The position numbers and the translations under genes are program-made. From NCBI RefSeq assembly GCF_025787225.1, contig NZ_CP090958.1, positions 744,001 through 808,000 on the forward strand: 64,000 nucleotides of DNA. Reading direction: 5' to 3'. Within the stretch, counting starts at the first letter, position 1; every line of letters begins with the position of its first letter. A model generated the notes under the pieces. The model was not told the DNA's origin, searched no databases, and saw nothing but the letters and a program-made list of their open reading frames with translations. Origin of the DNA: Saxibacter everestensis. Lineage in GTDB: Bacteria; Actinomycetota; Actinomycetes; Actinomycetales; Brevibacteriaceae. Positions 29,377 through 32,341 of the stretch are shown here, piece after piece.

Positions 29377-29385
29377 GGGGCACTC

Positions 29386-30810
29386 ATGTCAGAGGCGACA
29401 CTGAATGAGACGGAAGTGGCGGCCCTTTCGAGGATCCGGACGCTCCTCGACGGCCAGGTCGACGGCACCGTGGCCGAGAGCCTCAAGCGCCTTCCGGACA
29501 AGGAACTGGGTCTCCTCCCACTGGCGGTCGTGGGCCTCGTCGACCTGTCCAGCCGTTTCATCACCGTTGCTGCTGCTGCTACCGGCCGGGTGCGTGCGGC
29601 AGTGGAGTTCTTGGCACGATTGGAGGCATACTCCAACATCCCGAACCTGCTCAAGGGCATCCCCAAGGTCCCCGCCGAGGCCGCCCTCACGCAGGCAGCG
29701 TTGACTGTGGTCGATGACGAGATCACGACGGAGCAGTTCAACGGCCAGGCGTTCGGCTTCCCGACGTCCGAGTTCTGGGGTATCGCGGCCCTGGCTGCCC
29801 GGGCCGACGCGGACGTCATCGAGCGTCTGCGTGGTCGACTCGTTGGGGAGTGGGTGCCCAAGCATCTGTCAGCAGCGGAGAAGGCCACTGTGCGCCACAC
29901 CGAGTTGGTCCAGGCAGACCGTTCCGCCGGCGCCAACCCGGCCCCAGAGGCGCCGCAGAAGGTGTCCGAGGTCAAGAGCTGGCTCGCCAATCATCCAGAG
30001 CCCGACGTTGCGAGCCTCGCCCCCAACGCCGACCAGAGGGCCGCAGCCCGGGTGGCTGCCGTTCGGGCATTGACAAAAATCGGCACACGGCAAGCCTTCG
30101 AAGTGCTAAAGAAGTATGGGACGCCGTCGCACTCCGACGCCATGCTGAAGGAGCTGCACGTGGCCTGGGCCCGCTTCGACCGCCGCGAGTTCGCTGCCGC
30201 CATGTTCCAGCCGAGGTCCGGGTGGTTGGACCTGGGGGAGTCCGCGAACCTGGAGGGCGTCGACGCCATCCCTGGGTTGACTCACCTCACCGTCCTCCTC
30301 GGCAAGAAGGTCGATCTCTCCCCACTGGCTGGATGCAACGGGCTCGAGCGGCTTGTTCTGCACGCGTTCGCGGCCCCCGGGATTCAGGACATCACCCCAT
30401 TGGCAGAGTTGCCCGCTCTCACCGAACTCCACCTCATCGGGTTCACCAGCGGCGCCGACCTTGCGACTTTGTCCAGGATGCCCGTGCGGCGTCTCCGCAT
30501 CGACCTCGGTTGCGAGGCCGGGGACGTCCTCCTCTCGATGCCCCAGCTGGAGCGCCTGCTGGTCGCCGGGGAGGCCGACGGCGAGCCGGCCCATCCAGGT
30601 CTCGGCCAAGTGGTCCGCCAGCTGGCCCGCACGGGCGTCCAGGTGGTGGTCTACCGGCACGAGGAGTCATGGGTTCCGCAGCTGGTGAAGGACACGGAGG
30701 CCTGCTCTGGACTGCACTGCGTCAGTAAGAGCGGCTACGTCGCCCTCACTACGGACGAATCCGGATTGGAGAAGCTCACGAGCCGGTTGTTCAATAACAT
30801 CGTGCCGTGA
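29386..30810 (+). CDS. Leucine-rich-repeat protein of unknown function
   Basis: A soluble-looking 474-residue protein without signal peptide or membrane helix. The N-terminal about 200 residues are helical and alanine-rich with no recognised domain. The middle (about 205-280) is charged. From about residue 285 there are LRR-like turns: LTHLTVLLGKKVDLSPLAG, LERLVLHAF, DITPLAELPALTELHLIGF, MPQLERLLVAG. This LRR style recalls the C-terminal sensors of actinobacterial NACHT/STAND proteins, but no NTPase domain is present here. ATG at 29386 follows AGGGGG. It separates rimI from tsaD and its codon choice looks less CGG/CCG-rich than its neighbours, suggesting acquisition. No function is claimed. 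Confidence 0.75.
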   Translation: MSEATLNETEVAALSRIRTLLDGQVDGTVAESLKRLPDKELGLLPLAVVGLVDLSSRFITVAAAATGRVRAAVEFLARLEAYSNIPNLLKGIPKVPAEAALTQAALTVVDDEITTEQFNGQAFGFPTSEFWGIAALAARADADVIERLRGRLVGEWVPKHLSAAEKATVRHTELVQADRSAGANPAPEAPQKVSEVKSWLANHPEPDVASLAPNADQRAAARVAAVRALTKIGTRQAFEVLKKYGTPSHSDAMLKELHVAWARFDRREFAAAMFQPRSGWLDLGESANLEGVDAIPGLTHLTVLLGKKVDLSPLAGCNGLERLVLHAFAAPGIQDITPLAELPALTELHLIGFTSGADLATLSRMPVRRLRIDLGCEAGDVLLSMPQLERLLVAGEADGEPAHPGLGQVVRQLARTGVQVVVYRHEESWVPQLVKDTEACSGLHCVSKSGYVALTTDESGLEKLTSRLFNNIVP

Positions 30811-30885
30811 CCCGTCGTTGCGGCGGCGCTCACCATTGGCGACCTCGATCCGTCCGCGTGAGTCAATGAGCGAACCGCCCAGCGC

Positions 30886-31200
30886 CTAGTGCAGAACCTT
30901 CAGCCCGATGACGCAGCCGACAATGCCCAATAGCAGCAGGACTTTCACCAGCGAGGCTGCTTCGCCATCGAAAATCATCGCGTAAGCAACTGTCAGCACC
31001 GCGCCGATCCCGACCCACACCGCATATGAGGTGCCGGTAGGAAGTTCGCGCATCGCGAAGGCGAGGCCAGCCATGCTGAGAACCAGCCCGACGGCGAAGG
31101 TGACTGTGGGCCAGAGTCGAGTGAATCCCTCGGCCTTGCCGAGTGCGGTTGCCCAGACGGCTTCGAGTACACCGGAAATAACGAGAACGAACCAGGACAT
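30886..31200 (-). CDS. gdx: SMR-family guanidinium exporter (Gdx/SugE type)
   Basis: A 104-residue small multidrug-resistance protein with four membrane helices. The N-terminus MSWFVLVISGVLEAVWATALG, the first-helix glutamate in LEAVWA that binds substrate, and PTGTSYAVWVGIGAV match the SugE/Gdx branch rather than EmrE. The ATG at 31200 is chosen because a guanidine-III riboswitch and a GGGGAG site lie directly before it. The riboswitch implies that the physiological substrate is guanidinium. It is divergent from the Mph-like kinase gene. Confidence 0.93.
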   Translation of the reverse strand: MSWFVLVISGVLEAVWATALGKAEGFTRLWPTVTFAVGLVLSMAGLAFAMRELPTGTSYAVWVGIGAVLTVAYAMIFDGEAASLVKVLLLLGIVGCVIGLKVLH

Positions 31201-31214
31201 AGCGATCTCCCCTT

Positions 31215-31256
31215 GCGCCGTCTTGTCGCGTTCCGGGTACGGCGCACCTCGTCCGG
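31215..31256 (-). promoter_or_regulatory. Guanidine-III riboswitch (mini ykkC-III pseudoknot)
   Basis: Read on the minus strand, 42 bases match the known guanidine-III aptamer closely. It begins CCGGACGAGGTGCGCCGT, then the second CCGG that closes the first stem, and ends ACAAGACGGCGC. GCGCCGT pairs with ACGGCGC as the pseudoknot. The aptamer ends right before the AAGGGGAG ribosome binding site of the SMR gene. Guanidine-III switches usually turn translation on when guanidinium binds. The match is from memory of the Thermobifida aptamer; a covariance search would confirm it. Confidence 0.92.
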
Positions 31257-31391
31257 GTGCCGGTATGGCTGATTCAAAAGTCTCACGCCCTTCCCGAGCT
31301 GGCAAGTTGCGCTGAAGGCCTCGCTATATTCACTGGCAGGCCGGGCAGACTGGCGGCTAGTCTGGCAGCCACCCGGCGGAAGGACTCCCCA

Positions 31392-32309
31392 GTGCGACCA
31401 CGATCAGACGATGTTCAACAGATTCTCGATCTCGCCAGCAGGCACGAACTCAGCCTCGAGCAGAATTCGCTGTCGGTCATCGAGGCGGGTCTGGACTTCC
31501 GGGTCGTGCTGGCGCGAGCGAACGACGGCACAGACTGGGTGCTGCGGATTCCGCGTCGGGCCGACGTCTCCGACCGGCTGGCGGCGGAGGCCAGAATTCT
31601 CGACTTCGTCGGGCAGCGTCTTGACGTTGCGGTTCCCGATTGGCAGGTGACGGCGCCTGACCTGATTGCGTACCCCCTGCTCCCCGGGCGGCCCGGCCTG
31701 ACGATCGATGAGACCTCCGGCGAGCCGCTCTGGCACTTCGACCGGGAATCGCTGCGATATGCCGAAGACCTTGGCCGGTTGATCGCGGCCCTGCATGGCT
31801 TAAGCGCCAAGGAGGCCAAGGTCGCCGGGCTGCAGGTGCAGGATGCCGACGAGTCCCGCGCTGAATGGGAGCAAAATGTGCAAACGGTTCGCGCGGAATT
31901 CAAGGTCGCTCCCGATCTGGTTCGGAGGTGGGAAAACTGGATCGCGGACGACTCCTTCTGGCCGATTCGCACGGTACTGACTCACGGTGAGCTCTATCCG
32001 GCGCACGTCCTGATCGCCGACGACGAGACGATTACAGCCGTGCTTGACTGGACGACCGCGAAGGTCGGCGATCCGGCGCTGGACTTCATGTTTCAGAAGA
32101 TGATCGCAGGCGAGCGGGCGTTTGCGGCGACCGTCGATGCCTACCACAAGGCCGGTGGCCGGACCTGGCCGCGACTTGGCGACCACTGCGCCGAAATCGT
32201 GGCGGCCAGCCCGGTCGCTTACGGCATCTACGCTCTCACCACTGGCGAGTCGGCGCATCTCGACGCCGCGGCGGCGCAGCTGAATCCGGTGAAGTCTCCG
32301 GCGGTCTAA
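31392..32309 (+). CDS. Macrolide 2'-phosphotransferase-like kinase (Mph family)
   Basis: A 305-residue aminoglycoside/macrolide phosphotransferase-fold protein. It matches MphB-type enzymes along its length: EAGLDFRVVLARANDGTDWVLRIPRRADV near residue 30, LIAYPLLPG near 95, and AVLDWTTAKVGDPALDFMFQ near 216 with the metal-binding DW-TAKVGD. The Brenner motif reads LTHGELYPAHVL near 196, so the usual catalytic HGD is HGE. GTG at 31392 has GGAAGGA about 8 bases upstream. It is divergent from the guanidinium exporter and lies in the rimI-tsaD insertion. Macrolide resistance is plausible but unproven. Confidence 0.82.
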   Translation: MRPRSDDVQQILDLASRHELSLEQNSLSVIEAGLDFRVVLARANDGTDWVLRIPRRADVSDRLAAEARILDFVGQRLDVAVPDWQVTAPDLIAYPLLPGRPGLTIDETSGEPLWHFDRESLRYAEDLGRLIAALHGLSAKEAKVAGLQVQDADESRAEWEQNVQTVRAEFKVAPDLVRRWENWIADDSFWPIRTVLTHGELYPAHVLIADDETITAVLDWTTAKVGDPALDFMFQKMIAGERAFAATVDAYHKAGGRTWPRLGDHCAEIVAASPVAYGIYALTTGESAHLDAAAAQLNPVKSPAV

Positions 32310-32341
32310 TCGCCGTTCGCCGGCAACGATAGCCTTGGCCT

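Follow-up and report, generated by a model that had tools for sequence, protein, structure and literature searches.

A class III guanidine riboswitch in the leader of a single Gdx-type exporter gene of Saxibacter everestensis

The 64-kb stretch of the Saxibacter everestensis genome analyzed here (the window; contig NZ_CP090958.1, positions 744,001 to 808,000) almost certainly carries a class III guanidine riboswitch (formerly ykkC-III) that acts as an ON switch in the 5' leader of a single gene for a Gdx-type guanidinium/proton antiporter of the small multidrug resistance (SMR) family. The aptamer with its conserved bases and covarying helices, its position and the Gdx residues of the exporter are established here. 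Release of the Shine-Dalgarno (SD) sequence as the main mode of control is less sure. A divergent gene for an Mph-like kinase, which an earlier note on this DNA had placed under the same promoter region, is most probably an unrelated neighbour.

The guanidine-III element and its relatives

The features of the leader and the exporter gene are as follows.

31212..31274, minus strand: guanidine-III riboswitch aptamer (RF01763), full length including the 5' hairpin (Rfam cmscan)
31215..31256, minus strand: 42-nt pseudoknot core with P1 (CCGG/CCGG), the conserved ACGA and P2 (GCGCCGU/ACGGCGC) (sequence; covariation of both helices)
31207..31212, minus strand: Shine-Dalgarno sequence GGGGAG, 2 nt past the 3' strand of P2, with 6 nt to the ATG (sequence)
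30886..31200, minus strand: gdx-type SMR exporter gene, 104 amino acids (PF00893; Gdx-Clo 6wk5; Gdx residues)

RF01763 (Guanidine-III) is the sole Rfam match at or above the gathering score in the window. It runs on the minus strand from 31274 to 31212, spans model positions 1-67 of 67 and is not truncated. The covariance-model search that the earlier note had proposed as a check thus yielded 63.7 bits (E 8.2e-11), far over the gathering score of 36. No other guanidine-III copy was found in the 4.05-Mb genome, in which the window copy is the single match.

Read along the minus strand from 31256 to 31215, the core consists of CCGG and ACGA, followed after a short spacer by GCGCCGU, AC and CCGG and, after a second spacer, by ACGGCGC. 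The two CCGG segments and the GCGCCGT/ACGGCGC pseudoknot that had been read from the letters are all present. The range first given, 31200-31260, covers the core; it leaves out the short 5' hairpin, which extends to 31274 outside the core and is included in the Rfam match, and the strand had not been named. Downstream of the core, AA is followed by GGGGAG, and 14 bases separate the end of the pseudoknot from the ATG of the SMR gene (31200-31198). The element stands directly before this gene on the same strand. Its claimed place just before the ribosome binding site of a Gdx-type exporter holds, with the SD sequence beginning 2 bases past the core and the Gdx residues present in the protein.

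Guanidine-III elements are frequent among relatives. At E <= 0.001, matches occur in 16 of 60 family genomes (11 of them over the cut-off) and in 192 of 396 genomes of the order sample (182 over the cut-off). Forty-five distinct loci were compared, namely all 16 of the family, the window included, and 29 from the rest of the order, which represent the best riboswitch scores and not a fair sample. The next downstream gene encodes an SMR protein in 45/45 loci. Its start lies 6-49 nt past the Rfam match in 44 loci and 117 nt past it, with the start codon picked automatically, in L008. An association of the ykkC-III class with emrE and speB has been described (PMC2864571, in the portion available).

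The binding pocket comprises a CG dimer flanked by As, together with G17, according to the accessible part of PMC7736828. The corresponding bases A5, C6, G7, A8 and G17 do not vary among the 45 aligned cores, 38 of which are distinct. Over the 38 distinct rows, 91.1% of the 418 cells of P1 and P2 are paired, and in 6 of the 11 pairs both partners have changed. None of 500 shuffled controls reached any of five covariation measures; controls slid along the alignment were paired at 33.0-48.3%. The P2 pair of columns 13 and 42 is unpaired in 27 of the 38 distinct rows and is C-G in the window, where all seven P2 pairs are intact.

The window element shares with the class (ykkC-III, RF01763) its sequence, both helices, the conserved pocket bases and the place before an SMR gene, and no difference of weight was found; its P2 is an intact 7-bp helix. 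A decayed or ligand-shifted variant of the aptamer has a negligible probability: the match is full-length, the pocket bases are those conserved throughout and P2 is complete, while nothing was found in favour of decay.

The Gdx-type exporter

The exporter belongs to the SMR family with 79.8 bits for PF00893 (cut-off 23.7). Its best match among solved structures is Gdx-Clo (6wk5, E 7.5e-19), ahead of EmrE, and the alignment with Gdx-Clo is ungapped over residues 1-102. The working parts of these transporters include E13, S42, Y59, W62 and a GxG fulcrum, of which S42, the Trp and GxG are common to the Qac type; W16 is conserved in Gdx and replaced by Gly or Ala in Qac proteins (PMC7695847, PMC9574504, both as far as the available text goes). 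E13, W16, S42, Y59, W62 and the GxG fulcrum all occur in the window protein. Of the 60 SMR proteins encoded at the 45 riboswitch loci, none deviates at the E, W, S, Y and W positions, and four have A in place of the first G of GxG. The central Glu, W16, S42, Y59, W62 and GxG are thus shared with the Gdx-Clo/SugE exporters (PF00893). Two differences from them were noted. The gene is single, and the NCBIfam equivalog model for SugE (NF008512), still the best NCBIfam match, gives 97.3 bits, under its cut-off of 126, which counts against the assignment. Because this cut-off is missed, the protein is named Gdx-type on its residues and its riboswitch and not SugE in the strict NCBI sense. By analogy with the class, it would form a homodimer that exchanges guanidinium for protons.

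Four further SMR genes are arranged as two pairs in the genome (G000:C1:824131-824820 and 3864965-3865593; L072, L073). Reading by eye, none of their products has the Trp three residues past the central Glu. Of the five SMR genes found, the window gene alone encodes the Gdx Trp. A search of the 11 kb surrounding these pairs listed no Rfam guanidine family with an E value of 5 or less.

The riboswitch is followed by one Gdx-type gene in the window and by two in tandem in 15/15 other loci of the family (L002-L016). The tandem proteins of the family are 39-58% identical to the window protein; those of the 29 loci from other families are 62-76% identical. In a tree of 64 SMR proteins, the window protein joins that of a genome from another family (G377) with starred support of 98/91. 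The tree comprises 105 columns, its bootstrap had not settled, and seven first-gene family proteins (L008-L014, 99 amino acids), probably also L016_2, are cut at the N-terminus by the choice of start codon. Lateral gain of the single gene and retention of an old single gene that was lost elsewhere would both fit.

Control of the exporter

Guanidine-III riboswitches free the SD sequence and stabilize the mRNA against RNase E, as reported in the accessible part of PMC12186494. Applied to the window, rising cellular guanidinium would bind to the pseudoknotted aptamer. In the bound state, the 3' strand of the pseudoknot, which ends 2 nt before the SD sequence, would be held in P2. The ribosome site would then be usable, and the mRNA would also be protected, as has been published for the class. 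The Gdx exporter would be made and would pump guanidinium out. The layout fits a release of the SD sequence, which begins 2 nt past the last base of the pseudoknot.

A folding test compared the pairing of the SD sequence in the free leader with that in a leader with masked aptamer, the bases of which were barred from pairing. Of 45 loci entered, five without a recognized SD string were dropped and 40 were scored, with chosen flank lengths and a short list of SD strings; pseudoknot geometry and ribosome stand-by effects are ignored by this test. In the window, pairing fell from 0.83 in the free to 0.53 in the masked leader, a value scored over AGGG only and not over the whole GGGGAG. The free-state SD sequence pairs mainly with bases just past the ATG at three of four leader lengths and with the upstream leader at the fourth. 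Averaged over the 40 loci, SD pairing was 0.51 in the free and 0.61 in the masked leader.

Several results count against the reading of the unit as a whole. The predicted SD release is not consistent across loci: masking lowered the pairing by more than 0.1 in 10 of the 40 loci and raised it by more than 0.1 in 21. With other leader lengths of the window, many SD bases stayed strongly paired after masking (0.04-0.96 per base). A promoter and terminator scan of 30700-31600, limited to simple sigma-70-type consensus sequences, found nothing. As the folding test gave no consistent SD release, the ON direction and the translational mode rest on the class; the same source suggests ligand binding. 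Nothing contradicts the earlier note's statement that translation is on when guanidinium binds. A guanidine-III aptamer that acts mainly on mRNA stability, by governing the access of RNase and not by freeing the SD sequence, is an explanation to be kept in view, and the inconsistent accessibility values agree with it. It is considered rather unlikely, since the SD sequence lies 2 nt past the pseudoknot, the start codon follows closely on the Rfam match in most loci, and the computation leaves out pseudoknot geometry and ribosome stand-by. Translational control through SD release is the favoured mode, at lower confidence than the identity of the element.

The divergent kinase and the block between rimI and tsaD

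Two further genes lie beside the riboswitch-exporter unit.

31392..32309, plus strand: divergent gene for an MphH-like macrolide 2'-phosphotransferase, GTG start, 305 amino acids; neighbour gene (PF01636; 5uxd)
29386..30810, plus strand: P0003, 474 amino acids, an open reading frame with no Pfam match over the cut-off

The Mph-like kinase announced in the earlier note is a real gene. Its product belongs to the APH family (PF01636, 108.6 bits), and the closest solved structure is MphH (5uxd, E 2.4e-101), to which it is alike over residues 5-300. It differs from MphH in falling short of all eight NCBIfam Mph cut-offs listed; no MphH model is among them, and the best is MphF with 265.2 of 650 bits. 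A literature search for MphH with Brachybacterium found nothing. With E <= 1e-40 as the limit, 34 of 60 family genomes and 53 of 396 order genomes contain homologues, many of these about 50% identical. A contig scan with the kinase returned no relative and is uninformative on absence, because the genome search finds many relatives at this identity.

The starts of the exporter and kinase genes, 31200 and 31392, are divergent and 192 bp apart. Both the riboswitch (E <= 0.001) and the kinase (E <= 1e-40) occur in 18 genomes of the order sample, as read by eye from the full genome lists. They are adjacent in the window genome only. In 13 of the other 17 they lie on different contigs of draft assemblies, the ends of which could hide a case; in the remaining four (G118, G196, G282, G305) they share a contig and are far apart, the nearest at about 45 kb (G196). 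An mph match was present within about 1.5 kb of the riboswitch at 0/44 other loci, and an SMR match near the kinase at 0/19 other loci examined.

The kinase and the riboswitch-exporter unit lie, together with P0003, in a block (29377-32341) between rimI and tsaD, which are separated by 2.97 kb. P0003 shows weak LRR/HEAT-like scores only, and none of the 59 other family genomes has a relative at E <= 0.001. Thirty TsaD loci were compared, the window's own included; a P0003, SMR or kinase match was found at 0/29 of the others. In G059, which has the nearest TsaD (82%), 87 nt lie between the alignments of rimI and tsaD, and all three block genes are lacking. Three other family genomes (L080, L097, L100) have about 0.71 kb between rimI and tsaD, again without the block genes, and rimI was not found within reach in 25 of the 29 other loci. 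A tight junction is therefore seen in G059 only. The two block ends share no 6-12-base words in the stretches compared. The G+C content is 0.646 in the window, 0.66 in P0003, 0.65 in the kinase gene and lower, 0.60, in the SMR gene. The block may be a lineage-specific insertion.

A divergent, functionally linked resistance unit of kinase and exporter would be in line with the close divergent starts and with the absence of both genes from the rimI-tsaD interval of G059, and a comparable guanidine link has been proposed for arr near ykkC-III (PMC8492726, in the text available). The comparison speaks the other way, with adjacency in just one of the 18 genomes that hold both and no pairing at the 44 other riboswitch and 19 other kinase loci. 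As a conserved unit, the combination was rejected on this count, and a functional link within the window is very unlikely. Less probable still is a laterally gained unit of P0003, riboswitch-gdx and mph, in which the kinase would serve under guanidinium or guanidino-compound stress from a shared divergent control region. If true, the block would take the place of the Gdx gene pairs of the family-mates. The kinase as an unrelated neighbour is the favoured reading. Of the promoter region said to serve both genes, the divergent arrangement stands; the sigma-70 scan of the region was empty, and nothing contradicts the claim. Since the adjacency is, among the genomes sampled, unique to the window genome and the scan holds no promoter-like site, a shared promoter region describes the layout only.

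The riboswitch and its exporter are an intact but ordinary further copy of a well-described unit and add one confident example to the known class. The single Gdx gene, compared with the paired genes of the family-mates, bears in a minor way on how SMR dimers evolved. For the gene itself, which is open to the label of a quaternary-ammonium pump because its top NCBIfam model carries that name, the riboswitch provides a likely substrate and inducer, guanidinium.
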